Shown here: piece by piece, positions 957 through 37,278 of the stretch | How positions within the stretch are numbered: position 1 is the stretch's first letter | Layout of the letters: each line of letters starts with the position of its first letter | Source of the DNA: Streptomyces sp. MNU76 | Lineage (GTDB): Bacteria > Actinomycetota > Actinomycetes > Streptomycetales > Streptomycetaceae | Direction of reading: 5' to 3' | NCBI RefSeq assembly: GCF_020982545.1 | Contig: NZ_JAJKLK010000019.1 | Location: forward strand, 558,001 to 622,000 | Length of the DNA stretch: 64,000 bases | Translations under genes and position numbers: made by a program | Notes under the pieces: model-generated | The model's input: only the letters and a program-made list of their open reading frames with translations | Told to the model about the DNA's origin: nothing | Databases searched by the model: none

Positions 957-1103
957 TCGCGCAGTTCCCCGCCCCTGAAAGATCAGGCCCTGCGGGCCGG
1001 AAAGACCACGGCCTTGCGGGCCTGAAAGGCTGCGGGGCCGCGGGTTGAAAAGCGCGGGGCGCAGCCCGGGCTTTTCAGGAGCGCGGGGAACTGCGCGATC
1101 AGC
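957..1103. repeat. Inverted pair of the GCGCAGTTCCCC dispersed element in the argS-lysS gap
   Basis: A copy at 957-979 reads TCGCGCAGTTCCCCGCCCCT. An inverted copy at 1073-1103 reads, on the minus strand, TCGCGCAGTTCCCCGCGCTCCT. The first copy lacks two bases. About 95 bases of GC-rich, partly self-complementary sequence separate them. The same element recurs near 11.96 and 40.82 kb. Nothing else gene-like is seen in the 839-1248 gap. Confidence 0.75.
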
Positions 1104-1248
1104 CCCCACCGGAGCCGCACCCGCCCACGTACCCGTACCCCCGCGTTATTGGGCGCCCGGTTCGACCCACGGAGTGAAAGGCTGGGAGAATGACGCGGTC
1201 GCCCGGGACCGTAACCGGCGGCCATGGAAACTCCAGGAAAAAGAGGAC

Positions 1249-22484: not shown

Positions 22485-22509
22485 GGGCGGGGTTCCGGGA
22501 ACCCCGCCC
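22485..22509 (-). terminator. Perfect 12-bp hairpin after the MFS remnant
   Basis: GGGCGGGGTTCC and GGAACCCCGCCC around one central base. It lies downstream of the minus-strand MFS remnant and upstream of the beta-lactamase. GTGAAC-GACAA-GTTCAC at 22662-22678 is a separate inverted repeat beside the MFS stop. Confidence 0.7.
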
Positions 22510-22681
22510 GCAGTTCGTAGGCAGTGCCGGGCGGCGCTGTTCCGCGGGGCCCGCATTCGACCGGCCGGACTCATGGCTGGATCCGTTTCAGAAGCCTGGA
22601 GGGGACAGCGGGGGCGGCGCCGGAGACGCTGATCCACTACGCGGCATGACGAGGCCGCAGAGTGAACGACAAGTTCACAGG

Positions 22682-23422
22682 TCAGCACAGGTCGGCGACG
22701 ACATCGTCGGAGTCACGGCTGTGGCCACCAGAACTCTGGGTCCGTTGCCGCGGACCTCTCGCGAGCACGTGGACGAACAGGATCGCCATGACTACTGCGC
22801 CTGCCCACATGGCGTGCTGCCAGCCGTCGACGAAGGACTCGTGGGCGGCTCGGGTGAGCGCCTGCGCCTGGGGGCCGGCCCCGTCGGCGGCGTCGCCCGG
22901 TACTCCGTCGAGCCGGGAGTCGATGGCGTCGCGGTAGCCGGCGGTCAGGACCGCTCCGAGCAGCGCGACACCGAGCGCGGTGCCGAACTCCCGGGTGACG
23001 TCGTTGAGCGCGGACGCGACACCTTGACGCTCACGCGGCAAGGCGGATGTGATGGCCTCGGTGGAGGGTGTCATCGTCAACCCCATACCGAGTCCCATGG
23101 CGAGCATGCCGGGGAGGATCGAGAGGTAGCCGCCGTCGACGGAGACGAAGGCGGCCATGAGGACCAGTCCCGCGCCGCCCAGGAATATCCCTGAGGCCAT
23201 CGTCGAGCGGGTGCCGATGCGCGCGGCTGCCCGCGGGGCGAGGCCGGAGGCGAACATCATCAGCAGCGCCATCGGCATGAGCGCCAGGGTGGAGCGAAGG
23301 CCGGACCAGCCGAGCACCGCCTGGAAGTACGGGAAGCGGACCACGAAGATCCCTGCCTGCACGCCGAAGACCGTCAGCTGACACGCTCACAGCGAGTCAC
23401 CAACCTGAGTTGACAACTCCAT
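22682..23422 (-). pseudogene. MFS drug-transporter remnant (DHA2-like), N-terminal half deleted
   Basis: The C-terminal ~230 residues of a 14-span multidrug transporter: FPYFQAVLGWSGLRS, LALMPMALLMMFASGLAPR, MLAMGLGMGLTMTPST, LPRERQGVASALNDVTREFG, and a last span at WAGAVVMAILFVHVLA. Family proteins are about 480-520 aa. Upstream, an ATG at 23422 with AGGA opens an 11-codon frame (MELSTQVGDSL) that stops just before the remnant begins near 23385. This may be the original start followed by a large internal deletion. AGTTGACAACT at 23409-23419 is a short palindrome near that start. Confidence 0.75.
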
Positions 23423-23494
23423 TGGGAATCCTTTCAGGAAGGCATGGTGAATCGGCGCCGGATCAGCGGGCCCTGGCGCTGGAGGACGGTGTGA

Positions 23495-24130
23495 TCACCG
23501 GCGTCGTGTGGCGCGTACGACGACGTCGTGGAGGGGGACCGCTCGGCCCCCGTGGCCGGTGAGTGTGCGGAGGTGCTCCTCGGCGGTGACGATCTCCCAC
23601 TCCCTGCCGTCCAGGCGCGCGGTGATGGCCGCGCAGGTGGCCGACGCTTCGGCAGGAGGGTGGTGCCCGTGGCCGGTAGAGCCCGAGGTGTGCAGGTGCC
23701 CCACGATGAGGAGCGTGCCACCGGGGCCCACCCATCCGGCGATGCGGTCGTAGAACTCCAGCTGGGGCATTGCCGGGTGGGCGTAGTGGGTCATGACCAG
23801 GTCGAACGGCGCGCCCGGGCTCCAGGCGCCCAGATCCGCCTCGACCCACCGCAGGCGCTCGGGAGCCTCGCTCGTCGCCGCCCGCTCGGCAGCGCGAGCA
23901 AGTGCCTTGGACGAGATGTCGGCCGCGGTGACGTGCCAGCCGTGGGATGCGAGCCAGATCGCCTCGGCACCGCCGCCACACCCCGCATCCAGCGCCGTGC
24001 CCGGTGTCAGGCCGCTGGTCTCACGAGCGAGGTACGGGTTGGGCGGGTTGTCGCCCATGGATACGGGGCCGCCGGCCTGCCCCTGTTGCCAGTGCCGCTC
24101 CCAGAAGTCCTTGTCGAATCCGTGCGTCAC
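23495..24130 (-). CDS. Class I SAM-dependent methyltransferase
   Basis: 211 aa from the GTG at 24130 (GAGGAG upstream). Rossmann-like methyltransferase: motif I ALDAGCGGGAEAIWLA, an acidic residue after beta-2 (TAADISSKAL), WVEADLGAW, and motif IV (LVMTHYAHP). It resembles the thiopurine/tellurite-resistance-like group that starts with FWERHW. Substrate unknown. It is transcribed away from the XRE-cupin gene; this divergent regulator/methyltransferase arrangement suggests the regulator controls it. Confidence 0.85.
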   Translation of the reverse strand: MTHGFDKDFWERHWQQGQAGGPVSMGDNPPNPYLARETSGLTPGTALDAGCGGGAEAIWLASHGWHVTAADISSKALARAAERAATSEAPERLRWVEADLGAWSPGAPFDLVMTHYAHPAMPQLEFYDRIAGWVGPGGTLLIVGHLHTSGSTGHGHHPPAEASATCAAITARLDGREWEIVTAEEHLRTLTGHGGRAVPLHDVVVRATRRR

Positions 24131-24224
24131 GTATCGCCCTCCTCGTTCGCAACGCCCCTCTGCGGGTGCGTTCCTCGGCTCGTTCTTCACGGTGCCGAGA
24201 GAGAGGGCAGGTGCGCAAACCTTG

Positions 24225-24238
24225 TTGCCGAATGGCAA
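24225..24238. promoter_or_regulatory. Palindrome TTGCC-GAAT-GGCAA, candidate XRE operator
   Basis: A perfect 14-base inverted repeat ending nine bases before the XRE-cupin ATG, in the divergent gap with the methyltransferase. The site at 4568-4583 differs by one base within the shared 15-mer. Location suggests autoregulation. Confidence 0.55.
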
Positions 24239-24247
24239 AATGACGGA

Positions 24248-24844
24248 ATGGATGAAGCCATCGACCGCACCCTGGACGCCGTCGGAGCGAGGTTGAAACG
24301 CCTTCGGCTGCATCGGGACGTCACGCTCGCCGACCTCGCGGCGGAGACCGGTATTTCCACCAGCACCTTGTCCCGGCTCGAGGCGGGCCTGCGGCGCCCC
24401 ACGCTTGAGCAGCTACTTCCGCTTGCTCGCGCCTACGGGGTCACACTCGACGAGCTCGTCGATGCGCCGCCCACGGGCGACCCCCGCATCAACCTGCGTC
24501 CCATCTCCTGCAGCGACGGCTCGGTCATCCTGCCGCTGACCCGCAGGCCCGGGGGGATCCAGGCCTACAAGTTCGTCCTGCCGACCGGAAGCGACGACGC
24601 CGAACCGGACCTGCGCACCCACGAGGGCTACGACTGGGTCTACGTCCTCAACGGAACGCTCCGCCTTGTACTCGGGGAACACGACCTCATCCTCAAGTCC
24701 GGGGAAGCCGCGGAGTTCGACACGCGCACCCCGCACTGGTTCGGGGCCACCTGCGCCGGCCCCGTCGAGTACCTGAGTCTCATCGGGAAACAAGGCGAAC
24801 GCGCACACGTCCGTGCGGCACCGAGACAAGGCCCGGCCGAGTAG
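24248..24844 (+). CDS. XRE-cupin transcriptional regulator
   Basis: 198 aa from the ATG at 24248. Residues 14-72 are an XRE helix-turn-helix (RLKRLRLHRDVTLADLAAETGISTSTLSRLEAG). Residues ~105-185 are a cupin (THEGYDWVYVLNGTLRLVLG, GEAAEFDTRTPHWFGA). There is no strong ribosome site before the ATG and the operator-like palindrome ends at -9, so transcription may start near the codon. It probably represses itself and the divergent methyltransferase; the ligand sensed by the cupin is unknown. Confidence 0.88.
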   Translation: MDEAIDRTLDAVGARLKRLRLHRDVTLADLAAETGISTSTLSRLEAGLRRPTLEQLLPLARAYGVTLDELVDAPPTGDPRINLRPISCSDGSVILPLTRRPGGIQAYKFVLPTGSDDAEPDLRTHEGYDWVYVLNGTLRLVLGEHDLILKSGEAAEFDTRTPHWFGATCAGPVEYLSLIGKQGERAHVRAAPRQGPAE

Positions 24845-25057
24845 GAAGGCTCAGGGACCACACATCCGGGACCACTGCTGCTCGTGGACAGCTCCGCTGC
24901 GGTCCTCCGGCGATCTCGGCTCGGGCTGATCGGTGACGGTGCGCGACGGCGACGGGCGCAGTGCCGTTCACCGAGAACGGCGCCGGCACGGCCACCGGCG
25001 CACGTAATGCCCTCGGTGATTGCAGCGGCCCTGGCCGCCAGACGCCCCTCCGGGGAC

Positions 25058-26345
25058 ATGAAGAAGGCGGGGCTCGAAAGCCCCGCCCACATGCTGCGGA
25101 TGGCCAACCGCACCCGCGAGCGTCAGCCGCTGCTGGCGGTCCTCTCCGAGCACGTCACTACCGAGTGGCAGCGCCTGCGGATCCTGCTGGACGCGGCGAA
25201 ACAAGCCCGGCTGGGCGAGCAGTTCACCGTCGACGGCGTCACCTGGCAGCGCGCCGCCAGCAAGGCCGCCGCGCGCCGACCTGAACTTCTCGGCTCCGAA
25301 CCGATCCGGGTGATCAACAGGGACACCGGCGAACTGGTACGCCTGGCCTACGAGGAGAACAGCGCTTTCTGGCAATGGGCCGTGGTGGAGACCCTGCGCC
25401 TGGCCGGGCTGTGCCGCGAGGAACTCGTTGAGCTGACCCACCTGAGCGTCCGTCAATACCAGCGCCCCAACGGCGAGGTCGTCGCCCTGCTGGTGGTCAG
25501 TCCGTCCAAGAGCGACCGCGAGCGCGTCATCCCGATGTCCGTGGAGCCGTTCCACGTCACCGCGCAGATCATCCGCCGCCACGGCGAGGAGCACGGGACC
25601 GTCCCGGTCTGCCCCCGCTACGACCAGAGCGAACGCACCTGGTGCGAGCCGCTGCCCTACCTCTTCCAGCGAGTGCAGAGCGGCACTCCGCGGGCCCTGT
25701 CGGTCAGCGGGGTGCGCCAGATCGTCCTCGATGCCGCCAAGGCCCTGATCCCCACCCACCCGGAGTTCGCCGAAATCCGCTTCGCCCCGCACGACTTCCG
25801 CAGGCTCTTCGCCACCGACCTGGTCAACAACGGACTGCCCATCCACATCGGCGCGGCCCTGCTCGGCCACTTCGACATCCAGACCACCCGCGGCTACGTC
25901 GCCGTCTTCGACGAGGACGTCATCGCCCACTACACCGAATTCCTCGACCGCCGCCGGGCCAAGCGGCCCCCAACCGAGTACCGCCAGCCGACCAGCGAAG
26001 AGTGGAGTGACTTCCAAGAGCACTTCGACAAGCGCAAGGTCGAACTCGGGTCCTGCGGACGCCCCTACGGCACGCCCTGCGCCCATGAGTACGCCTGCAT
26101 TCGCTGCCCGATGCTGTCAATCAACCCCAAGATGCTGCCCCGCCTCGACGAACTGGAGACCGACCTACTGGCCCGCCGCCAACGCGCCAAAGACGAAGGC
26201 TGGCGCGGTGAGGTCGAAGGACTCGACCTCACCCTGCGGTTCCTGCGCAGCAAACGCGCCCAGGCCCACCGCACCGCCGCTATGGGGCAGGGTGGACCTG
26301 GGCATGCCCACACGGTCCCGGCACCACTCCGGCCACGGCGCATGA
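25058..26345 (+). pseudogene. Large tyrosine recombinase, 5'-truncated, frameshift near the end
   Basis: Family sequence starts abruptly near 25079 (SPAHMLRMANRTRERQP); the open frame before it (from 24884) is arginine-rich and unlike the family. The catalytic domain is present: R in LAGLCREELVEL, HDFRRLFATDL, GHFDIQTTRGYVAVF with the tyrosine, then the Cys cluster CGRPYGTPCAHEYACIRC. The usual ending is in another frame (LWGRVDLGMPTRSRHHSGHGA, stop at 26345), shifted near 26280-26290. It resembles the second gene of Tn554-like elements. A dead copy marking an older insertion at this site. Confidence 0.75.
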
Positions 26346-26472
26346 CCTCCGCGGCCCTGCTGCACGCGGTCACGTCGGTCGCGTCTCGGCCCCGGCACTC
26401 GATCGATCGGGCAGACTGGCCTAGTCCGGCCCCCCCACGCAGCGCTCGAAGGTCGACATGGGGTGATGGTCG

Positions 26473-26962
26473 ATGACCGACGCACCGAGTCTTGCGATTC
26501 CGCTGCGCTCGTGGCGCGCTCGCGTCCAGCCGGCAGACGTAGGCCTGCCCTTCCGGCCGGGCTCGCGCAGGATTGCGGATTGCGTCGTGAGGAGGTCGCC
26601 TGGCTCGCCGCGTCTCACCGGACTACGTCAAACGTCTCGAGCAGGGCCGCGCGCATCCCAGCGGTGCCGTCCTGCGCGCGTTCTCACGGCCGCTGCGCCT
26701 GGCGGAGGCCGAGTACGAACTGGCCTGCCGCCTGGCAGGGCACGCCGCCGAAAGCGGCGGACTGGTGCCTCAGCGCATCTGCCCCGGCGTGCAGCGCCTG
26801 CTCGACCGCCTGACCGACACCCCGATCGCCGTCTTCGACGCGGCCTGGACCTTCATCTAGCACAACGATCCGTGGGCCGCGCTGACCGGAGACGACCGGC
26901 GCGGCCGCGGTGGCCGGTCGGCGAACATCGTGTGGCGAGCCTTCCACGACGACAAGTCGTGA
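26473..26962 (+). pseudogene. MmyB-like XRE regulator, heavily decayed
   Basis: The ATG at 26473 opens LRSWRARVQP. The HTH part continues in a second frame (LRREEVAWLA) and then a third (SPDYVKRLEQGRAHPSGAVLRAF). This leads to the PAS-like ligand domain (RLLDRLTDTPIAVFDAAWTFI), broken by an amber codon at 26858-26860, then HNDPWAALTGDD and a stop at 26962. Intact relatives are about 260-280 aa. Two frame changes, one nonsense codon and a missing C-terminus mean real decay, not a single sequencing slip. Confidence 0.7.
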
Positions 26963-27067
26963 TCGACTGGGCGCTGGGCCGGCCGAAGCCGGTCGGCCGG
27001 GAACTGGACGCGGCGGTGCAGCGGCGCTCGCCTCACACCGAGCTGGTGGACCGGCCCGAGTGGGCAC

Positions 27068-27676
27068 TCAGGTGGTCAGGGTGGCCGGTCGAGGTTGCCG
27101 CAGCCCCTGGAGGAGCAGTTCGATCAGGCGGCGGGGGTCGTAGCGGGGGTCGTCGTCGCGCCCGATGCAGAGGTTGCCGATGCCGCGCATCAGTTCGTAG
27201 GGCTGGATGCCGGGCCGGATGTCGCCCGCCTCGACCGCGGCGTCGAGGAGTTGGGCGCTCACGGGCTCCAGGCGGTCGACGAGGTAGGTGTGCAGCGTGG
27301 CGAAGCGGTCGCTGTCGGACTGCAGGGCGTCGGCGAGTCCGTGCTTGGTGGCCAGAAAGTCGACGAAGAGGTCGATCCACTGACGCAGTGCGTCGAACGG
27401 GGATTCCGAACTGGCCAGCAGCTTCGGTCCGGCCTCGACGCATGCCTCGATCTGATGGCGGTAGACGGCGGTGACGAGGTCCGCCCGGGTCGGGAAGTGG
27501 CGGTAGATCGTGGCCATTCCCACGCCCGCCCGTTCGGCGATCTGGCGAATCGGCGCGTCGACTCCGGAGGTGACGAACACCTCGGCGGCGGCGGTGAGTA
27601 CGGTCTGCTGGTTGCGCAGCGCGTCGGTCCGCTTGCTCCGGGTCGGTACCTTCCCCGTGGGGCTCTCGCTGGGCAT
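27068..27676 (-). CDS. TetR/AcrR-family repressor
   Basis: 202 aa from the ATG at 27676, just behind a GTG at 27679 with GGAAGAG upstream. The N-terminal HTH is typical (ILTAAAEVF-type helix, IRQIAERAGVGMATIYRHFPTRADLV). The C-terminal ligand domain is all-helical. It faces the alpha/beta hydrolase gene across 170 bases that contain a 21-base inverted repeat, so it probably represses that gene and itself. Confidence 0.88.
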   Translation of the reverse strand: MPSESPTGKVPTRSKRTDALRNQQTVLTAAAEVFVTSGVDAPIRQIAERAGVGMATIYRHFPTRADLVTAVYRHQIEACVEAGPKLLASSESPFDALRQWIDLFVDFLATKHGLADALQSDSDRFATLHTYLVDRLEPVSAQLLDAAVEAGDIRPGIQPYELMRGIGNLCIGRDDDPRYDPRRLIELLLQGLRQPRPATLTT

Positions 27677-27729
27677 CACGCTCTTCCTTCCGGCGCCGCT
27701 TGACGAAACGGAGCGCTGTTCCGGATATT

Positions 27730-27750
27730 AAGTGGTGCGACGCTCCACTT
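27730..27750. promoter_or_regulatory. Candidate TetR operator, AAGTGG-N9-CCACTT
   Basis: Six-base arms at 27730-27735 and 27745-27750 in the divergent tetR/hydrolase gap. GGAGCG upstream and CGCTCC at 27741-27746 form a second, wider inverted pair. Confidence 0.5.
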
Positions 27751-27849
27751 CAGGTTAGCTGAAAACCGGGCGCCCCCACCTCCCTTGTCCTACCGCTTCC
27801 GAACCGGACCGGTGGCCGACAAGGCCCGCAGATAAGGAAACCGCGCATC

Positions 27850-28803
27850 ATGAGCACATCCACCACCACCGCCGACACCCTGAGCTCGTCGGCCCCGGTC
27901 CTGTCCTACAGCCCGGTGGTGCTGTCCATACCCGGACGTCCCGTGGACCTCCAGGTACGGGTCACCGCGCCCGAGACCGGCACGGACCTTCCCGTCATCC
28001 TTCTCTCCCACGGCCAGGGACCCTCGAACAACCTGTCCTCGCTCAACGGCTACGCGCCGCTCGCCAACTTCTGGGCGGCCCACGGCTTCGTCGTCATCCA
28101 GCCCACCCACCTCACCTCCAGGACGCTGAGCGACCATGTCGCCGACGCCCCCGGAGCCCCCTTCTTCTGGCGCTCGCGCTCCGAGGACATGAGCCACATC
28201 CTCGACCGGCTCGACGAGATCGAGAAGGCCGTACCGCTGCTCGCCGGACGGATCGACCACACCAAGATCGCCGTCGCCGGACACTCCTTCGGCGGCTTCA
28301 CCTCCAGCCTCCTGCTCGGCGCCCGCGTCACGGACGACGGCGAGGAAGTGAGCCTGCTCGAACCCCGGATCAAGGCGGGCGTGCTGCTCGCCGCGCCCGG
28401 CAGGGGTGACGTCCTCAACGGGTCCATGGCCGACATGCTGCCGGTCTTCCGAACCATCGACTTCTCCACGATGACCACACCCGTGCTGGTCGTCGCCGGC
28501 GACGAGGACGACTCCCGGCACTTCACGGACATGGGACCCGACTGGCACGCCGACCCCTACACCCTCGCCCCGGGCCCCAAGGTCCTGCTCACCCTGTTCG
28601 GCGCGGGGCACGCACTCGGCGGAATCCCCGGGTACGACGTCGCCGAGACCACGGACGAGAGCCCCGAACGGGTCGCTGCCGTCGGCCGCCTCACCTCCGC
28701 CTACCTCCGCAGCCAGCTCCACCCCGGCGACAACGCCTGGCAGACCGCACGCGAGGCCCTGTCGTCCGGCCCCGACCCGGTTGGACGAGTCGAAGCCAAG
28801 TAG
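27850..28803 (+). CDS. Alpha/beta hydrolase (chlorophyllase/PAF-hydrolase-like)
   Basis: 317 aa from the ATG at 27850. The fold is shown by VILLSHGQGPSNN (oxyanion region), the nucleophile elbow GHSFGG with S146, LVVAGDEDD (likely acid) and a late histidine in FGAGHALGG. No signal peptide. The DLPVILLSHG...GFVVIQPTH pattern fits the chlorophyllase-like/dienelactone hydrolase group; substrate unknown. Divergent from the TetR gene. Confidence 0.82.
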   Translation: MSTSTTTADTLSSSAPVLSYSPVVLSIPGRPVDLQVRVTAPETGTDLPVILLSHGQGPSNNLSSLNGYAPLANFWAAHGFVVIQPTHLTSRTLSDHVADAPGAPFFWRSRSEDMSHILDRLDEIEKAVPLLAGRIDHTKIAVAGHSFGGFTSSLLLGARVTDDGEEVSLLEPRIKAGVLLAAPGRGDVLNGSMADMLPVFRTIDFSTMTTPVLVVAGDEDDSRHFTDMGPDWHADPYTLAPGPKVLLTLFGAGHALGGIPGYDVAETTDESPERVAAVGRLTSAYLRSQLHPGDNAWQTAREALSSGPDPVGRVEAK

Positions 28804-28897
28804 TCCGTCCGCGAGCCTCATGGTCATGGTCGCTCCCGCCGACCTGCATGATGCCGTGGGGCCCGCGGGCTATCAGCGTTCCCATACTCCGAGGGCC

Positions 28898-29375
28898 TCA
28901 CGCACCCACCATGTCCGCCGTGGCGGGATACTCATCCCAGGTCCGCCCATCGAGCAGGCGGCCTGCAGCCTTCGGGGTCGGCCCGCCGACCTGCTTGAGG
29001 AACAGAGCCACCTGAAGATCGACACACCGATCGCGAATGTCACGGACCCAGGCCAAGTCCAGCGGCCGGTGAGCCGGGCCACTCTCACCACCGACGATCA
29101 CCCAGTCGATCCGCGACAGCTCCAGGGACGGCACTGGCCCAAGCAGCGGCCAGCGGCAGAAACCGGACAGCCGCAGGGATGCCCCGCAGCTCATCAGCCC
29201 GCCAGCAGTACTCATCCGACTCGATCGACGTGCCGATCCAGACATTGGGAAGCGGCCAGAAACTCAAGGCGCTCCAGTTGGCCATACGCTTGCGCACGTC
29301 CTCGCGCACGGGCCTGGCCAGCGGAACAGCATCGTCCTCTGACAACTGTTCCATCTCGGTCCAGACCGCGTCCAC
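28898..29375 (-). pseudogene. DUF5131 (phage Gp37-like) remnant
   Basis: The downstream half of a DUF5131 protein in two frames. One carries WPLPNVWIGTSIESDEYCWRADELR; the other continues PLLGPVPSLELSRIDWVIVGGESG, KQVGGPTPKAAGRLLDGRTWDE. The switch lies near 29135-29165. The N-terminal ~100 residues with the radical-SAM-like Cys cluster are absent. Function of the family is unknown; it is often carried by mobile DNA. Confidence 0.65.
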
Positions 29376-29442
29376 GAACTTCTGCGATGCCAGCAGACGA
29401 CGCAGACGCCGGGGTCTCCACAGTAGGAGGGGAGATGCAGTC

Positions 29443-29655
29443 GTGTGCGCTTCGGAGCCGCTGGAGTTGGACGACTACATCAAGTCCATCGGCGACGAGA
29501 AGGTCGTCGTCGACATGCTCGTCGGTGACCTGCAACGGGTGATCGAGTACCCGAAGCTCGGCTTCGTAGTCGAGCAGGACGTACCGGGGGATGTGCATGA
29601 CGCTTACGAGCGCCTTCTACGCGACGGATTCGACAGCCGCCTCATCGGCACCTGA
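29443..29655 (+). CDS. Small acidic protein of unknown function
   Basis: 70 aa from the GTG at 29443, with AGGAGGGGAG eight bases upstream. Sequence features: ELDDYIKSIGDEKVVVDMLV, a LQRVIEYPKLGFVVEQDVPG core and DAYERLLRDGFDSRLIGT at the end. Acidic, no membrane span, no recognised family. The good ribosome site and even codon pattern suggest a real gene. It lies between the DUF5131 remnant and the recombinase trio; whether it belongs to the mobile unit is unclear. The 226 bases to the trio show no gene. Confidence 0.6.
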   Translation: MCASEPLELDDYIKSIGDEKVVVDMLVGDLQRVIEYPKLGFVVEQDVPGDVHDAYERLLRDGFDSRLIGT

Positions 29656-29881
29656 CCCGTTCCACGCTGGTTCGCCGGGCGGGTGTGCGCGATCAGCCAA
29701 CCGAACCTCTTCCCACGGCTGTCCACGCTGGCCAAGCTGTACGCCGCCGATCGGTGGATCATCCTCGACTTAACCGACCCGCTCACCAGGTGTGTGCCAC
29801 GTTGACGAGACCAGTGTCCTGAGCCGTGCCACAGTCGTTAACCGCCCCGAGTCCTGATGTACGGGACGTTGGGGAGAGAAC

Positions 29882-31054
29882 ATGCCACTGCGACTGGTCC
29901 TGGGACAGCTACGGGTTCAGGAGGTACGACACAACGGGCTGTTGGGCCACACCATCGTGCGCGCCGACGGATCACTCCACGACTTGGCGGACGCGTACCT
30001 GCGCACGTGCACCGCTGGGACTGCTCGGACGTACGCCTACCTGCTGGTCGATCACCTGCGCTGGCTGGAGTGTGAGGTCCTCAAGCCCGAGTCGGTGGGC
30101 CTGCGGGACCTGGAGCGCTACATGGGGGCGGTCGGCGCGGAGGTGCCGGGACCGTACGGCCAGCCATGGCGCCCGGACAAGCGCCCGTACGGGCCGAGTT
30201 CCCTGCTCACGGCCGCCGCTTGTGTCAAGGGTTTCTACGTCTTCCAGGGACGGCAGGGCATCAATGAGGCACTCGCCAAGGCCCTGGACGGAACTCGGTT
30301 GCCGACAAAGGCGGACCGTCGAAGGTCCTTCCTCGGGCACACCCTGCAGGCCCTGCCCTCCAACCCGCTGACCCCGACGAAGACCGTGCGACGGCGCCAT
30401 CCCAAGATGCTGCCCGAGCAGGCCCGGCCCCGGCTTGTCGAAGAGCTGTCCTCGGCCAGGGACCGCATGGTCGTGACGTGGCTCGACGACGGCGGTTTCC
30501 GCATCGGCGAGTTGTGCGGTCTCCACCTCACCGATCTCCATCTGCGTGACGGCGCCCCATGCGGGGACTGTGTCTCTCCGCACGTCCACATCTGCCACCG
30601 GGAACGCAACGCCAACCGGGCCCGCGTCAAGGTCAAGGACCCTTGGATCGTCGAATCCGGAGTGGTACGAGGCGGTGAGGTCCGAAGGGCCAGTCCGACG
30701 ATGATCCACACCTACTTCGAGTACATCACCAGTGAGTACCCCCGCTCCGCCCGGCACGGGATGCTGCTCGTTCAGCTGCATGGGCCACGCCGGGGCGAGC
30801 CCTGGGCCACCGCTGCGGCACGCGGAATGCTGCGGCGAGCCGGGATCCGCGTCGAGCTCGGCAAGATCCTGCCCAAGGAGTTCAGGCACTCCTTCACCAG
30901 CGCGGTCCTCGACGCGTCCGACGGCAACACGATGATCGCCCGTGAAGCCGGCGGCTGGAAGTCGGCCGCCATGGTCGAGGAGGTCTACGGCCACACCGAT
31001 GTCCATGACCCGGTCCTCGCCGCCGCCCTGGAGCGCACCTGGGAGGAGCAGTGA
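29882..31054 (+). CDS. TnpA-like tyrosine recombinase
   Basis: 390 aa from the ATG at 29882 (GGGGAGAG upstream). SAM-like N-terminal arm-binding domain (ARTYAYLLVDHLRWLE) at ~45-85, catalytic domain from ~175. Candidate catalytic residues: R207 (DGGFRIGELCGL), R335-H336 (KEFRHSF, with K where most recombinases have the box II histidine), W359 (GGW) and nucleophile Y369 (VEEVYGH). CxxC and HxxxC pairs at 227-239 (CGDC, HICHR) may bind metal, as in other TnpA-like proteins. The stop overlaps the next gene by four bases. Confidence 0.85.
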   Translation: MPLRLVLGQLRVQEVRHNGLLGHTIVRADGSLHDLADAYLRTCTAGTARTYAYLLVDHLRWLECEVLKPESVGLRDLERYMGAVGAEVPGPYGQPWRPDKRPYGPSSLLTAAACVKGFYVFQGRQGINEALAKALDGTRLPTKADRRRSFLGHTLQALPSNPLTPTKTVRRRHPKMLPEQARPRLVEELSSARDRMVVTWLDDGGFRIGELCGLHLTDLHLRDGAPCGDCVSPHVHICHRERNANRARVKVKDPWIVESGVVRGGEVRRASPTMIHTYFEYITSEYPRSARHGMLLVQLHGPRRGEPWATAAARGMLRRAGIRVELGKILPKEFRHSFTSAVLDASDGNTMIAREAGGWKSAAMVEEVYGHTDVHDPVLAAALERTWEEQ

Positions 31055-33639
31055 CCACGGTCCTGCCCTTGCTGTCCGGTGCTGCACCTGACCGGACCGT
31101 TCGCGACAGACTTGAGATCCTCACCGCCCTGATCGCCGCGCCGAGTTTCGACCCGCTGTTCCGCGACGAGATCATCCAGATCCCCGGTCAGCACTCGGTC
31201 TTCACCTGGGGCTGCCAGGTTCCACACTGCGAACGCCCGGGCTACGAGGCATCGCGGTTGTGTGCCACACATGATCGTCAGTGGCGCGGTGCACACGCTC
31301 GGGGTGAGCGTAAAGCGGTCTTCCTCGCTTCCGCTGAGGCGTTGGTCGCGCACCAAGGCTTCGGCTACGGACGCTGCCGCGTCTGCCCCGGGCGACCGGC
31401 GCACACCCGTGAATTGCGGCTGTGTGAACGCCACGAGCACCTGTGGTCTGTCTTCTGCAGGGACGAGACGGCGACGCCGGATCTGGAGCAGTGGGCGGCT
31501 GATCAAAGCGCCTTCCACAGTTTCGGTACCTGCCGAGTCCCGGCCTGCGCCGAACTCTCCGTCTCCCCCTTGGGCCTGTGCCTGGGACACCGCCATCGTT
31601 ACAACCTGGAGGGCAGGCCCGGCGGCGCGACCATCCCTCAAGCATGGCGACGCGTCTACGAAGACCGAGGCCGCCCCGTCCCTGTGAACATCGAGGATGA
31701 ACACACCTACGCGCAGTGGCGCGCGAGGACCGGCCCGCTGTTCCGGGCCGGTCAGATCAACCTCAAGAGACTGCGTCCCCTGGTCCGAGCCGAGATCCAG
31801 TGGGGCCTCTTCGCACACACCCAGGAGGCGGACCCCGGCTACTGGGCGATCACCTCGATCCAGCGCTTGGTGGCCGTCTGCCGCGAGCGGGGCTTCGACT
31901 CGCTGGCGGACGCAGACACTGACGGCGAGCACCACAAGGTCCGGGCAATCGCCCGGTCGCTCCGCGACACCCTTCAGGTGCTCTACTCCACTCCGGAGGA
32001 GACCAAAGAGGCCGGCTACATCGAGACCGAGCACTTCGGCCGTCGCTTTCCACGCAGCGCCAGCCGTATCGATCTCACCGCGGTCAGCCAGCCCTGGCTG
32101 CGCGACCTACTCTGGGACCACCTCGCTGCTCTCATGCGCTCCCACAAGTGCCCGCGCTCTCGCGCCCCCTTGGACAACGCCCGCCGCGCCTGCATGGAGC
32201 TCAGTGCCTTCTTGGCTATCGATGCCCCGGACGTCGGCCATGACCCCAGGGCACTTACCACCCGCCATGCCGAACGGTTTGTCGCCGATCAACGCCAACG
32301 GGAAGGCAAGGGCATGCCGACACTCGCACGACCCGTCCGTGACAACGGCACGCCTTCACTCGTCACCCCGAACATCCGAAGGATCGTCTTCAACTACAGC
32401 CGCAAGATCCTCTATGACGCCCTCGAATCCGGCGAAGCCGACCGAATCGGCCTGGACCGCTCCTTCATCACCGCATTCCCACCCGGCGGGGAGGCCCAAC
32501 GCGTCTCGCGCAACCCCTTCACCGACCAGGTCGCCCGCGCGCTCGCTGACGAGGCCAACCTGCAGCAGTTCGCTCGTGAATACGACGTCAACGACCGTGG
32601 CCTGCGCGACATTTGGGAGGCCCTCGTGCTCACCGGACGACGTTGCAGCGAAGTGCTCAAGCTCCGTCTGGACTGCGTCGGCCGCTACCACGGCCGACTG
32701 CCGATGCTCTGGCACGACCAGACCAAGGTCGGGAACTACAACGAGGGCATCCGCATCCCCGAACGGCTTTACACCAGCCTCGAAAAGCGCCGCCGCACGA
32801 CGCTGGAACGCTTCGAGCTGCGAAACGGACGCCAGCCCACCGCTGAAGAGCGGACCGGGATGGCGCTGTTCCCCACCGAGGTACGCAATCGCGGAGAGCG
32901 GCGATCAATCAGCCACACCTTCTTCCACCTGCAGTTCAAGAGCTGGGTCGACAGCCTCGACCTCGGGAAATGCGTCCCCCACCAGGCGCGTCACACGCTG
33001 GCCACCAAGCTCCTGAGCAATGGCGCCAGCCTTGCCCACATCCGGCGCTACCTCGGTCAGGTCTCCGACCGGATGGCCGAGCACTACGCCAAGGTCGCCG
33101 ACTCCGAGATCGAGACCGTCCTGCAGGCCGTCTGGGTCTCCGGCCCCGGAGCCGCCCGCCCCGGGGAACTCCTCACCGGCGCCGAACCCCTCAGCCGCGA
33201 GCAAGCCACGGCCCTGGCCCTGGACCTCAGCCGCCGCAGCACTCCGGCCGAGGGCGGTTTCTGCACCTTCCAACCCGTGGTCAACGGCGACGCCTGTCCC
33301 TGGAAGCTCAACTGCGAAGGCTGCGACAAATTCGTCCTCTCCGGCGCTGACCTCCTCTACTGGCGGCGCAAGCAGGAGCAGTGGCGAAGTATCGCCGAGA
33401 GGGCGCCCGACGACGCCACCGCCGACTACCTCCACCAGGTCTTCGAACCGACCGCACGGGCCATCGATGGCCTGGAACGGGTACTGGCGGGTCTCGGCCT
33501 GCTCGAAGACGCGCTGGCGCTGGACCTGCGCCGGCCCCAGGACTTCTACCACCGCCTCTGGAACACCGCCTTCCAGACCAGCGACCTCGCCGACCTCGCC
33601 AGCGACGCCGCCTACACATCCATCACCGAGGGGCCATGA
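31051..33639 (+). CDS. TnpB-like large tyrosine recombinase with three zinc knuckles
   Basis: 862 aa from the GTG at 31051, overlapping the first recombinase (GTGA). Residues 55-180 contain three repeats of a CCCH knuckle: C55-x4-C60-x10-C71-x2-H74; C109-x2-C112-x12-C125-x2-H128; C161-x4-C166-x10-C177-x2-H180. The catalytic domain is at ~460-690: R near 530 (LTGRRCSEVLKL), HQARHTLATKLL near 644, and AEHYAKV near 680 with the tyrosine. A C-terminal Cys cluster (GFCTF, ACPWKLNCEGC) follows. Presumably acts with TnpA in strand exchange. Confidence 0.85.
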   Translation: MTTVLPLLSGAAPDRTVRDRLEILTALIAAPSFDPLFRDEIIQIPGQHSVFTWGCQVPHCERPGYEASRLCATHDRQWRGAHARGERKAVFLASAEALVAHQGFGYGRCRVCPGRPAHTRELRLCERHEHLWSVFCRDETATPDLEQWAADQSAFHSFGTCRVPACAELSVSPLGLCLGHRHRYNLEGRPGGATIPQAWRRVYEDRGRPVPVNIEDEHTYAQWRARTGPLFRAGQINLKRLRPLVRAEIQWGLFAHTQEADPGYWAITSIQRLVAVCRERGFDSLADADTDGEHHKVRAIARSLRDTLQVLYSTPEETKEAGYIETEHFGRRFPRSASRIDLTAVSQPWLRDLLWDHLAALMRSHKCPRSRAPLDNARRACMELSAFLAIDAPDVGHDPRALTTRHAERFVADQRQREGKGMPTLARPVRDNGTPSLVTPNIRRIVFNYSRKILYDALESGEADRIGLDRSFITAFPPGGEAQRVSRNPFTDQVARALADEANLQQFAREYDVNDRGLRDIWEALVLTGRRCSEVLKLRLDCVGRYHGRLPMLWHDQTKVGNYNEGIRIPERLYTSLEKRRRTTLERFELRNGRQPTAEERTGMALFPTEVRNRGERRSISHTFFHLQFKSWVDSLDLGKCVPHQARHTLATKLLSNGASLAHIRRYLGQVSDRMAEHYAKVADSEIETVLQAVWVSGPGAARPGELLTGAEPLSREQATALALDLSRRSTPAEGGFCTFQPVVNGDACPWKLNCEGCDKFVLSGADLLYWRRKQEQWRSIAERAPDDATADYLHQVFEPTARAIDGLERVLAGLGLLEDALALDLRRPQDFYHRLWNTAFQTSDLADLASDAAYTSITEGP

Positions 33640-34235
33640 GCACCAAGCCGCACCAACGGACCGCAGCCGCCATCGCTTCGCGCCGTCAGACCGCCGAGGC
33701 GATGCTCGACCGAGTCCGGGAGGCCCTTGCCCGGATGGAGCGCAGCCGCGCGCCGATCACGGTGGCCGCCGTTGCCCGTCAAGCCGACGTCTCCCGCACG
33801 TTCCTCTACCAGAACTCCCAGGCCAAGGACCTCATTGCCCAAGCGTCCACACGAAGTGGTGTCGGCCGTGAGCAAGACCGCGAGGACGCTGACGCCCGCC
33901 TCACGGCCTCGTGGCGCGAACGGGCACTCAACGCCGAGGACGGTCTGAAGACAGCACTGGGAGAGGTCCGTACTCAGCGTGATCGCATCGGCGAACTCCT
34001 CGGCCGAATCCGTGACTTGGAACAGGATCTACCCAAGGACGCCGTCCAGCGCGTGATGACGGAGAACACCACCCTCAGACGCCAGATCCAGCAACTCGGC
34101 GGCGAGCGCAGGAGCCTGGAAGACCGGTTGAAGGGGGCGCGCGAGAACAACCGCTTCCTCGACAAGCGCGTTGCTGAACTCGAGGCTCAGCTTGCCGAGC
34201 TGCTGACCCAACGCGGCGCACTGGACTTGCCTTGA
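33636..34235 (+). CDS. DUF6262 coiled-coil protein (TnpC-like)
   Basis: 199 aa. The ATG at 33636 overlaps the recombinase stop (ATGA). Residues 1-60 form a small helical domain with a TetR-like recognition pattern (ITVAAVARQADVSRTFLYQN). The rest, ~80-195, is a long charged coiled coil (GELLGRIRDLEQDL, NTTLRRQIQQLGGERRSLEDRL). DUF6262 proteins regularly follow paired tyrosine recombinases. By analogy with Tn554 TnpC it would be an accessory factor affecting efficiency or orientation. Confidence 0.8.
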   Translation: MSTKPHQRTAAAIASRRQTAEAMLDRVREALARMERSRAPITVAAVARQADVSRTFLYQNSQAKDLIAQASTRSGVGREQDREDADARLTASWRERALNAEDGLKTALGEVRTQRDRIGELLGRIRDLEQDLPKDAVQRVMTENTTLRRQIQQLGGERRSLEDRLKGARENNRFLDKRVAELEAQLAELLTQRGALDLP

Positions 34236-34289
34236 CGCTTCGTAACTGCCCTGGCGACCAGACATGTTCGTTCCCGGTGTAATGTCCCT

Positions 34290-35004
34290 CTACCGGGGCT
34301 GACCGTTCACGTTGTCCTCGAACAGTTCCCGGGTACGGCACAGCAGGGCTTCCCGCACGTCGTCCGGTGACAGGACCCGCAGTGGTGTGGCCAGGCTGAG
34401 GAGGTACTTGGCGAGCCCGTCCGCGTCGGGGCCGCCGATGTTGACGATCGTGGCGTCGGGGCCTTCCGGGCGGTGGGTACCGACCGTCGGCGGGATCAGC
34501 CGAAGCGACTGATCCAGGGGCAGCGGGAGGCGGATCGTCACGTAGAGCGGGTAGGTCCCGGTCGCGATGGAGCGGGAAACAAGAAGGGCCGGGTCAGGTG
34601 GGTCGATGAACTCCACCGGGCGTCCGGCCGGCTGTATCTGGCCGACCCTGTCGGCTCGGAAGGTACGCCACTCGTTCCGCCTCACGTCCCGGGCGACGAA
34701 GTACCAACGGCGTCCCGTGTAGAACGCCGCTGAGCGCGGCCTCGCGCAGCCCGACGGCCACGGCGAGTGCCTCTTCGTCATCGAGGATCAAGGGCGGCAG
34801 CCGTGCTCCGGCGCGGAGGCGATAACCGCCCCACGGCCCGGGGTCGGACTCGACTCCGTAGCCGATTTCTCGGAGCCTGGCGATGTCCCGCCGCACCGTG
34901 CGCTCGGTGACCGCCATGTGGTCGGCCAGCTCGCCGCAGGTCCACGACGGCCGCGCGGACAGCAGTGAGACCAGTCGCAGCAGACGGGCGGATGTACTGA
35001 TCAC
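34290..35004 (-). pseudogene. HTH-WYL regulator with internal deletion
   Basis: The GTG at 35004 starts a DeoR-type HTH (RLLRLVSLLSARPSWTCGELADHM) and continues to DDEEALAVAVGLREAALSGV. At about 34715-34730 the frame jumps to the C-terminal part (YTGRRWYFVARD, WRTFRADRVG, PLYVTIRLPLPLD, ending at 34290). Full-length relatives have roughly 70-90 residues between these blocks, including part of the WYL core, so a segment is deleted and the join is out of frame. It is divergent from the VOC gene it may once have controlled. The recombinase trio ends only 54 bases from its 3' end. Confidence 0.75.
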
Positions 35005-35067
35005 ATCGTGAAGTGTCCCGCATGACCAGGACCGAATCTGTCCTGGTCCCGGCATAGCGTCTTCCCC

Positions 35068-35454
35068 ATGAGCACCGGAAATACGTCCGCACCCGCGATC
35101 CGCTACTCGGCCATCACTTTTGACTGCCCGGACCCCGCCGCAATGGCCCGCTTCTATGGAGAGGCCCTCGGCCTGCCTGTCGCCTACTCCAGCGACGACT
35201 TCATCCTGCTCGGCCAGGAGGGCTCGGCTGGACTGGGGTTCAATCGGCTGACCGACTACAGGCGTCCCACCTGGCCGGACCCGTCCCAGGAGAAGCAGGC
35301 CCACATCGAACTGGGCGTCGACGACCTGGAGGGCGCGCAGGCTCACCTGCTGGCCCTGGGTGCTGTCGAGCCCCCGGCCCAGCCCCAGCCCGACCGGTGG
35401 AGGGTCCTGCTGGACCCCGCTGGCCACCCGTTCTGCATCACCACCCTGGTCTGA
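35068..35454 (+). CDS. VOC/glyoxalase-fold protein
   Basis: 128 aa from the ATG at 35068. A single vicinal-oxygen-chelate module pair: AITFDCPDPAAMARFYGEALGLPV, a central GLGFNRL strand, KQAHIELGVDDLEGAQAHLLALGA and a closing LLDPAGHPFCITTL. Such short proteins are often bleomycin-resistance- or glyoxalase-like; the ligand is unknown. The antibiotic-monooxygenase gene follows after two bases, so they form an operon. Confidence 0.83.
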   Translation: MSTGNTSAPAIRYSAITFDCPDPAAMARFYGEALGLPVAYSSDDFILLGQEGSAGLGFNRLTDYRRPTWPDPSQEKQAHIELGVDDLEGAQAHLLALGAVEPPAQPQPDRWRVLLDPAGHPFCITTLV

Positions 35455-35456
35455 GC

Positions 35457-35783
35457 ATGATCGGCAGACTCATGACCATGACCGCGCACCCGGGCAGGGG
35501 CGGCGAACTCGCCGCCGTCCTGCTGAGGGTCGCGGAGACGCTGCACGGCTTCCCTGGCTGTGAGATCTATCTGATCAGCCAGGACGCAGCCGATCCGGAC
35601 ACAGTGCATGTCACCGAGGTCTGGCGGGACGCGGCCAGTGCGCAGGCAGCCCTCGCCGCACCGTCGCGCGCCGACGGTCCCGACCCTGCAGATGTCCTCG
35701 CGCTGCTGTCGTCTCCGCCGCAACGCACGGACCTGACTGTCCTCGGCGGAGTGGGTCTCCCCACCGCCGACGGCCGGCCCTGA
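35457..35783 (+). CDS. Antibiotic biosynthesis monooxygenase (ABM) domain protein
   Basis: 108 aa from the ATG at 35457, two bases after the VOC stop. The dimeric ferredoxin-like fold of the YgiN/ABM group is seen in MTMTAHPGRGGELAAVLLRVAETL, PGCEIYLISQDAADPD and VTEVWRDAASAQAAL. Cofactor-free oxygenation of quinones is known for some members; the role here is inference. Followed by a strong hairpin at 35795-35834. Confidence 0.8.
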   Translation: MIGRLMTMTAHPGRGGELAAVLLRVAETLHGFPGCEIYLISQDAADPDTVHVTEVWRDAASAQAALAAPSRADGPDPADVLALLSSPPQRTDLTVLGGVGLPTADGRP

Positions 35784-35794
35784 CACACGCCCCT

Positions 35795-35834
35795 GGCCGC
35801 AAGAATGGCCCGCTCGGGGGTCATTCCTGCGGCC
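35795..35834 (+). terminator. Hairpin after the VOC-ABM operon
   Basis: GGCCGCAAGAATG (35795-35807) pairs with CATTCCTGCGGCC (35822-35834) with one mismatch and a 14-base loop, 11 bases after the ABM stop. Confidence 0.65.
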
Positions 35835-35943
35835 GGGTCGCGTAGGACCGGCACTGACATGCCCGTCGCGCCGCTGATGATGCGAGCACTGACAGAACGG
35901 CGGCCGGCAGCGCTGTCCTCCACGTCGCGAACATGCACGGGAC

Positions 35944-36801
35944 GTGAACTTGCAGTTCAGGGGCTCTTCTACACACGCGACGCTCGGAAAACTCGACGAC
36001 GTCCAGTTCGCCCGGCGCGACTACCAGCACCGGGCCCGCCTCGCGGCCCTGGACAGCCCCGCCAGGCAGCAGTGGCTCACGCTCCCCAGCCACTTGCCCG
36101 ACGGGCGCCCGACACTGATCAACCAGGCGCGGCTCGCCGACCCCAGCCGCTCCCGCCGTACCGTCAGCCTGCTGATTCGCCAGTACTACGGCCGCAGCCG
36201 CCACTGGCCCGCGGTGCGTGAAGTCCTGGACACGGTCCTCGATCAGTTCGAGGACGCCGACCGCGTCTCCGACATAGCCAGGGCGTCGACTATCGCCCTG
36301 CTCACCGCCCTTGGCTGGAGCGGTGACGTACTGGACAGCAGCACGATCCCGACTCGGGAGGGCCGATCAGAACGGCTCGCCGACCTTGCCGCGGTCACGA
36401 ACAGTACCCACTATCTCTGCGGCACGGGTGGCTGGCGCTACCTCGACCCGGCTCCATTCGATGCCCACGGCATCCCGGTGCTGGCTTTCCACACGCCTGT
36501 GGATACGGAAGACCCACTCTGGCGGTGGTCCCGAGGGGTCAGCAGCCTCTGGGCACTGAGCCAGATCGGGCCGGAAGCCCTGGCTGCCGTGCTGGCGGCC
36601 CAACGAGACAAGGTCCTTCGGGGGCTTCACGTGACCGAGCCGCTGATGTCGGGCAAGAAGCCGTTCCTGTACGTCGTCGTGTGTGCGGCCGGGGTCGCTG
36701 GCGACGTCGGCAAGTCGATTACGGCTGCTCAGGAGGCGAACTGGGACGTGGGCGTGGTGGCCACTCCGCAGGGCCTGGGTTTCATCGACACGGAGGGGTA
36801 G
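35944..36801 (+). pseudogene. Truncated WbqC-family protein fused to a flavoprotein N-terminus
   Basis: 285-codon frame from a GTG at 35944. WbqC-family sequence begins abruptly at LDDVQFARRDYQHRARL (about residue 17); the usual start of ~25 residues is missing. It runs through SSTIPTREGRSERLADLA, THYLCGTGGWRYLDP and LSQIGPEALAAVLAAQ. In the same frame a flavoprotein/PPC-decarboxylase-like N-terminus follows (KKPFLYVVVCAAGVAGDVGK, WDVGVVATPQGLGFID), cut off by a stop at 36801. A GTG at about 36631 could be that gene's own start. Both ends look cut by recombination, so it is unlikely to be functional. Confidence 0.65.
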
Positions 36802-36927
36802 CCGATCTGCAACGAATCGAAGAATGATCTCTTGGTCGAGGCCCTCCACAGCGTAGGCAGCCGCGTGCCGCAAGATGAGCGGGCCACATCGGGAACTTCG
36901 ACGTGGTGGAGGACTTCATACTCAAGC

Positions 36928-37278
36928 ATGCACGCGTACGCCTCCGCGCTCCTGGACGCGGGGGAGAACATCAAGGCGCTCTCCGAGTACCTCGGCCACT
37001 CGGACCCGGGCTTCACGCTGCGGACGTACACGCACCTGCTGCCGTCCAGCGACACCCACACCCGCAAGGCGATAGACGACGCCTTCACCGAGGAAGCCGA
37101 GCAGGGAGGGCACATCAGTGCCCTCGCCAGAGCCAATGTGCCCTGGCCGCCTGAGGGCGCCTCCCGGCACACGATGAGGGTGGAGCCCTTAAAGCTCCAC
37201 CCAATGCCCAAGAAACCCCAAGTCAGGGCCACACCAGGCAATAAGGCTGATGCCCCGCCTCATGCAACCGATGGCTGA
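36928..37278 (+). pseudogene. Tyrosine integrase (ICE/pSAM2-type), C-terminal remnant
   Basis: Only the last part of the catalytic domain remains: HAYASALLDAGENIKALSEYLGHSDPGFTLRTYTHLL, containing the (H/K)xLGH and final tyrosine motifs, then RKAIDDAFTEEAE. The upstream RxxH region is gone; a poor frame from 36832 leads in. The reading frame ends at 37278, inside the 3' end of the opposite core gene (37223-38653). This fits an integrase lying beside its attachment site. Dead gene. Confidence 0.75.
37179..37201. repeat. Inverted repeat GGTGGAGC-N7-GCTCCACC
   Basis: 8-bp perfect arms within the tail of the integrase remnant, 22 bases before the end of the convergent core gene. It could be a terminator for either, or part of a recombination site. 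Confidence 0.45.

Follow-up and report, generated by a model that had tools for sequence, protein, structure and literature searches.

A probable Tn554-related transposon in wbqC of Streptomyces sp. MNU76 and the target codons of its relatives

Streptomyces sp. MNU76 has a genome of 10.5 Mb. We investigated a 64,000-nucleotide stretch of its contig NZ_JAJKLK010000019.1 (hereafter the window, in which all coordinates are positions), with the region at 22485–37278 under study. The genes tnpA, tnpB, and tnpC and three cargo genes in this region form, in our reading (probability about 0.8), one Tn554-related site-specific transposon that sits precisely in wbqC, within an integration hotspot between lysS and hemL. 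An initial annotation had listed a Tn554-like trio at 29.9–34.2 kb, and the three overlapping genes do appear intact. It did not recognize trio and cargo as a single 6.2 kb element within wbqC; the insertion accounts for some of the chimeric genes it had listed. The parts of the element and its target are as follows.

29683–29769, plus strand: 5' part of wbqC, the target gene
29764–29769, plus strand: left 6-bp core CTCGAC, two wbqC codons (Leu-Asp)
29770–35991, plus strand: whole transposon, 6222 bp, defined by 99.9% identical copies in another genome, end motifs, and three uninterrupted wbqC sites
29770–29779, plus strand: left terminal repeat TTAACCGACC
about 29838–29847, plus strand: second copy of the left repeat, TTAACCGCCC, 68 bp further in
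29882–31054, plus strand: tnpA, tyrosine recombinase, 390 amino acids (Pfam; hhalign to Tn554 TnpA)
31051–33639, plus strand: tnpB, large tyrosine recombinase, 862 amino acids, three N-terminal CxnC..CxxH motifs (Pfam; AlphaFold2 fold match)
33636–34235, plus strand: tnpC, DUF6262 coiled-coil protein, 199 amino acids (Pfam)
34290–35012, minus strand: cargo, WYL-family regulator, split across two frames
35068–35454, plus strand: cargo, glyoxalase/VOC-family protein (Pfam)
35458–35783, plus strand: cargo, antibiotic biosynthesis monooxygenase (ABM)-domain protein (Pfam; start read from sequence)
35982–35991, plus strand: right terminal repeat GCTCGGAAAA, with GCAGTTCAG 40 bp from the end
35992–35997, plus strand: right 6-bp core CTCGAC
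35992–36801, plus strand: 3' part of wbqC (WbqC Pfam), then, from about 36640, a fused, truncated fragment that we read as flavoprotein-like

Ends, proteins, and known relatives of the element

The element ends were fixed by two copies that lie at different places in another genome and are 99.92% identical over 5291 bp. These copies end in TTTACCGACC and its reverse complement. A TTTACCGACC-type match lies 111–133 bp upstream of tnpA in nearly all relatives, and a second one, with at most three mismatches, is present 67–68 bp further in in 20 of the 26 listed sequences. The right end, where found, is closed by GCAGNTCAG and then GGTCGGTAAA or a variant. Empty wbqC sites were found in three other loci (L154, L157, and L171), where the flanks join directly, with an overlap of exactly 6 bp; the core there is CTCGAC in L154 and L171 and CTGGAC in L157. 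Exact ends, 6-bp cores, and three empty sites therefore make the trio and its cargo one element inside wbqC. The trio is single copy in the host genome, where the only three other matches span 43–48 bp. In the nearest relative, L061 from Kitasatospora aureofaciens, the element is 4591 bp long and has no space for cargo. One further locus, L108 (Streptomyces sp. B-S-A12), is a 4691 bp contig that consists entirely of one element from core to core, which fits a collapsed multi-copy element or a circle.

The start and stop codons of tnpA, tnpB, and tnpC overlap. TnpA is 80% identical to that of L061, and the ratios of nonsynonymous to synonymous substitution rates (dN/dS) against this relative are 0.156 for TnpA, 0.176 for TnpB, and 0.164 for TnpC, the dS of TnpC (1.5) being near saturation. 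Ratios of 0.16–0.18 in all three indicate that the genes are kept by purifying selection. The presumed catalytic residues of TnpA are invariant in 23 of 23 sequences apart from the HxxR histidine; this position is His in 18, Lys in three, and Gln in two, and the window copy has Lys. The first 200 residues of TnpB contain three CxnC..CxxH motifs whose 12 Cys and His residues are invariant in 46 of 46 sequences, and the catalytic residues are conserved in the same alignment. AlphaFold2 modeled the motif stretch at a predicted local distance difference test (pLDDT) score mostly near 90, and the motifs predict a zinc-finger-like, zinc-binding N-terminus. Residues ~348–681 of the model fold as a tyrosine recombinase (Z score of 14.6 to an integron integrase, root mean square deviation of 5.2 over 267 aligned residues), and the best Foldseek match is Cre. 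All 50 listed fold matches begin at residue 341 or later and so concern the catalytic part only, and the model is poor around the catalytic tyrosine, with residues 647–686 under a pLDDT of 50. The N-terminus is the fastest-changing part of TnpB, with a mean pairwise identity of 42% compared to 63% and 73% for the other parts. Of 199 genomes sampled from the genus, 34 have a TnpB match, fragments included.

The element shares with Tn554 and Tn558 of Firmicutes the tnpA-tnpB-tnpC order, downstream cargo, a DUF6262 TnpC, and a 6-bp core. Profile matching to Tn554 with hhalign gave a probability of 96.9 for TnpA and 95.3 for TnpB; the blastp match of TnpC (E value of 0.039 over 20 residues) is not convincing, although both proteins are DUF6262. 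Tn554 TnpB has 630 amino acids and lacks the zinc-finger-like motifs, unlike the 862-residue TnpB of the window with its three. Tn554-type insertions of Firmicutes are published to favor radC, whereas the window copy is in wbqC and the actinobacterial group uses many genes; no RadC match was found in the host genome. Since radC is a preference published for Firmicutes, we limit our claim to the Tn554 family in the broad sense. On a Lysinibacillus plasmid (L179), an element that we take from its gene content to be Tn558-like splits a JAB/RadC gene directly after HNHPS, presumably a zinc motif, and the gene resumes near 8039. For Tn6188, the available part of its report describes a highly conserved motif immediately before the insertion site in radC (PMC3788773). 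Both fit active-site DNA as an anchor in the wider Tn554 family.

Tn554-related transposons of Actinobacteria, Streptomyces included, were described by Van Houdt et al. in 2012; they resemble the window element in pairing a long and a short tyrosine recombinase, mostly with a TnpC-like partner, and the portion of that report available to us gives no ends or target genes for them (PMC3414803). Tsy and TnsF/Tn6022 elements insert at the Walker B motif of comM, and the idea of a conserved anchor is that of the authors, Faure et al. 2023, according to the excerpted text (PMC10293859). As excerpted there, Tsy has a small recombinase and a large zinc-finger recombinase, as may the window element, whose zinc binding is predicted from motifs. 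Its partners differ, with a small helix-turn-helix (HTH) protein upstream and, in part of the group, a GIY-YIG nuclease, and its authors found no inverted repeats, whereas the window element has terminal repeats. The element has no small HTH gene such as lies beside the recombinase upstream of TnsF, as tnpA and tnpB overlap directly, and it is in wbqC instead of comM, the target of its nearest relatives. The name Tn554 has 0 occurrences in the main text of Faure et al. (PMC10293859). Strand-biased circularizing integrative elements, in the accessible text of PMC10214605, also take the left 6 bp from the target and the right 6 bp from the donor and have inverted terminal repeats; they differ in having four core genes (intA, tfp, intB, and srap) and were reported in Gammaproteobacteria. 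A RIT element was considered and rejected: by the same text it has three tyrosine recombinases of 315–410 amino acids, and only two of the trio proteins carry a recombinase domain, one of them with 862 amino acids.

Target sites of related elements

A scan of one genome per species gave 152 relatives, of which 79 loci were examined; to these we added the window and 25 loci of the genus sample. Once duplicates were removed, 90 insertions had a readable left core, complete in 89. We scored the left flank (the right if unclear) in six frames by codon usage, blind to gene identity and with thresholds that we set ourselves. The 6-bp core is in codon phase, on either strand, in 66 of the 72 callable loci (87 scored, 15 without a call), and by named target family in 19 of 21 (p = 8e-8 against 1/3). 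This codon-usage test is the unbiased one, as opposed to the Pfam assignment described below, which used frame 0. The exceptions are L066, L134, L123, L124, L132, and L067, with uncertain element ends in the last two.

Pfam, flank similarity, or motif placed 64 insertions in 19 target families. Asp or Glu is encoded by the second core codon in 46 of these 64 and in 12 of the 19 families. Asp and Glu make up 10.1% of the codons in eight window genes, and against this background the excess counted by family has p = 2.8e-8. In comM, the core falls on the Asp of LFLDE, the Walker B motif (13 insertions, three of them reversed), and it takes the same Walker B position in TniB-like genes and in genes that we take to be ExeA-like. 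It falls on the second Asp of LDVD in genes that we take to be HAD-like, on the Glu preceding CNP in ATP-grasp genes, on the Glu of (V/I)E(F/Y)K in PD-(D/E)xK genes, and on the Asp of KIAD in an HD gene. These residues presumably have catalytic roles. Family-weighted base bias at the target sites is strongest for T at −5, T at −2, T at core position 2, and A at core position 5.

The Pfam checks covered target groups other than YH, PY, and L109. Two HAD fragments, one of two TniB-like fragments, and L107 had no hit, and the hits for the ATP-grasp, TniA, and DUF222 targets fell below the cut-off; the PD-(D/E)xK assignment is based on the motif plus a DUF5655 hit behind it. An RNA gene as the target was rejected, as there is no tRNA in the window and five loci from odd target groups gave no Rfam match. 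Many copies lie inside genes resembling the TniA transposase or TniB ATPase of other transposons (L035, L036, L044, L037, L041, L042, and others), so the family may also disarm rival transposons. Two of these, L041 and L042, have a closely similar 264-amino-acid cargo protein between tnpC and the right end, which looks like a nucleotidyltransferase.

Core inheritance and target recognition

Among the 46 insertions with complete left and right cores, the two differ in 28. Where they differ and only one fits the conserved residue pair of the target, it is the left one in six of six cases (L054, L056, L078, L133, L126, and L045), in agreement with the rule published for strand-biased elements and Tn554, as given in the accessible text (PMC10214605). 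The element L046 is nested among PD-(D/E)xK elements on the tree, yet it lies in a FadB-like gene, and its right core, ATCGAA (Ile-Glu), is the residue pair of its clade's usual target. On the TnpA tree (90 rows, a quick method, with support from the Shimodaira-Hasegawa-like approximate likelihood ratio test), the target labels need 32 changes compared to a mean of 67.0 when shuffled, and none of 200 shuffles was as low. The window element is sister to L061 (support of 97) and then to L063 (99), and both of these lie in comM. In the host, comM is intact, and its core is likewise CTCGAC. The likeliest history would be that an ancestor in comM's Walker B switched to the look-alike site in wbqC; the right core CTCGAC fits comM and wbqC alike and thus cannot confirm the switch.

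As a mechanism, we propose strand exchange by TnpA and TnpB at the 6-bp core, with a circular copy and a chromosomal site as the partners. The chromosomal site would carry T as the second base of consecutive codons and then A, that is, codons for a hydrophobic strand and then an acid. Because protein function keeps active-site DNA unchanged in every host, such DNA could be a durable anchor. The right core would then copy the left core of the previous site, as published in the accessible text for strand-biased elements and Tn554 (PMC10214605), and the window copy would descend from elements in comM. We have only low expectations of the broadest form of this proposal, in which Tn554-type transposons as a whole use attachment (att) sites that are DNA shadows of active sites and their recombinases recognize the period-3 pattern. 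If true, one family could jump between unrelated enzymes (ComM, HAD, ATP-grasp, nucleases, and transposon ATPases) and persist in any host.

Several points weigh against our reading. Two loci, L123 and L124, are out of codon phase, and seven of the 19 target families lack Asp/Glu at codon 2, chiefly TniA, whose 10 insertions have a freely varying core. Another 11 insertions (L039, L048, L059, L065, L066, L069, L071, L072, L073, L077, and L134; the RVTD group) are at nearly one site, CGTGTGAGGGTGACGGAC, that is apparently non-coding and gave no Rfam match in the four loci tried. The Asp/Glu count leaves aside 26 of the 90 rows, whose targets are unidentified, non-coding, or out of phase, and Pfam was given frame-0 target fragments only, which may have hidden targets in other frames. 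The clustering of targets by clade means that insertions are not independent. Neither of the same-genome pairs, L035/L036 and L075/L076, displays the transfer of a core between its copies (0 of 2). Transposition activity of the element is a prediction. Finally, the position on a conserved acid is not beyond what a DNA preference could give.

Such a preference comes close to an even chance in our estimate. The enzyme would read only a short degenerate word (approximately NTSGAN, with T at every third base upstream) with a quasi-palindromic core, and motifs would not be targeted as such. Phase and acidic codons would follow from the word being commonest in frame in genes rich in guanine and cytosine (GC), and active sites would be seen because an insertion spreads enough to be sampled only if it lies in widely conserved DNA. 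In favor of this, the base bias peaks at −5, −2, core 2, and core 5; NTCGAN nearly equals its own reverse complement, with both orientations seen in comM, ExeA-like, and TniA genes; and homology-based sampling favors conserved targets. However, hydrophobic-acid codon pairs are abundant in any genome, so the word is too unspecific for the clade clustering of targets, which needs more specificity than it offers.

A little less probable is target reading by the zinc-finger-like N-terminus of TnpB, as TnsF does for comM, with target switches through changes there. The motifs are invariant in an N-terminus that otherwise changes fastest, and TnsF, which has multiple zinc fingers in its first 199 amino acids, binds comM Walker B DNA according to the excerpted text (PMC10293859). 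However, when separate trees are built from the N-terminal, middle, and C-terminal parts, the target labels change 20, 20, and 19 times (minimum of 18), so the N-terminus tracks the target no better, and Tn554 is site-specific by published report although its TnpB is without these motifs. That the fingers read the period-3 target pattern would be a guess. An ordinary decayed island, with the trio, cargo, and wbqC pieces as unrelated debris, has next to no probability: truncated genes are many around the element, but its exact ends, 6-bp cores, three empty sites, and low dN/dS in all three genes refute this for the element itself.

The lysS-hemL interval and wider implications

The transposon in wbqC is one of several mobile remnants in the region, where the GC content is 0.64–0.71, compared to 0.70–0.76 in left-flank windows and a mixed 0.67–0.75 on the right. 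Other features are as follows.

22682–23362: major facilitator superfamily (MFS) fragment, truncated gene
25095–26290, plus strand, start approximate: C-terminal half of a large recombinase from a second, tnpC-less Tn554-related pair
28898–29375: DUF5131 remnant, truncated gene
36930–37110, plus strand: C-terminal remnant of an island integrase
37213–37298, strand not assigned: attachment-site repeat, the 3' end of the gene upstream of hemL
37223–38653, minus strand: conserved gene next to hemL (20 of 20 regions), whose 3' end is the island attachment site

The dead recombinase noted initially at 25.1–26.3 kb is a truncated large tyrosine recombinase (Phage_integrase, E value of 2.4e-12) of which only the C-terminal half is left. 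Its plasmid relative in L175 has 809 amino acids, matched in its C-terminal half only, and such tnpC-less pairs occur on plasmids. A terminator-like stretch directly before it, 25028–25094, is 88% identical to sequence behind the island integrase of L154 and 75% identical to a stretch near 37140–37207; it is perhaps a second scar of the same island type. The integrase tail was likewise borne out as an integrase C-terminus at ~36.93–37.11 kb, as were the at least five truncated or chimeric genes (MFS, DUF5131, WYL regulator, wbqC, and the flavoprotein-like fragment). Three separate recombinase systems are thus present; of their supposed three generations, the sole ordering shown is that the trio entered a pre-existing wbqC. 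The description of intact genes as regulator/target pairs suits the divergent tetR/hydrolase pair (27068–28803), which recurs on plasmids, and fails for the WYL regulator gene, which is not intact. The tetR/hydrolase pair is ~80% identical on several Streptomyces plasmids, where the two are named chlorophyllase and TetR regulator.

We searched 61 genomes for lysS and hemL and found both on one contig in 50; the other 11 had no same-contig pair. lysS precedes hemL on the same strand in 48 of the 50, with a gap of 4.7–77.6 kb (median of 21 kb). This refutes the suggested rearrangement of two distant core blocks and supports a site of repeated integration. lysS does lie to the left, but at 1045–3000, ~19.5 kb from the region and not adjoining it, and argS was not identified; directly to the left of the region come a subtilase, an aminotransferase, and a beta-lactamase. 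Compared from lysS to hemL, content differs between strains, and the same content in relatives was not seen. Among 20 hemL-upstream regions, hand-picked from hits and some because wbqC was near, the neighboring gene is present in 20 and an integrase C-terminus adjoins it in four. The N-terminal part of this gene is long, repetitive, and Asp/Arg-rich; the C-terminal part is conserved, and its last codons are the island attachment site. The 3' end of the gene recurs as a 76–86 bp repeat 8–12 kb away in three of the 20 (L152, L157, and L165), a pattern that fits an integrated island. In the host genome, no second att copy was found that would mark the left end of the hemL island. In L171, wbqC, the flavoprotein-like gene, and the integrase are spread over ~8 kb beside hemL in the same order; a deletion in the window is therefore likely. 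The reading of the interval as an integration hotspot is supported.

Tn554-related elements in Actinobacteria (PMC3414803) and Walker B targeting in comM (PMC10293859) were known from the available parts of those reports, and the breadth is the new part. No prior report of one family in many enzymes at the same type of codon was among the literature matches listed, the closest being PMC10293859. The finding generalizes the known idea of the comM Walker B as an anchor to many unrelated enzymes. For annotators, it accounts for "truncated" enzymes beside recombinase trios. It also predicts landing places of such elements, offers candidate recombinases with naturally conserved landing sites, and poses the testable question of how a tyrosine recombinase with no guide RNA locates active-site DNA.

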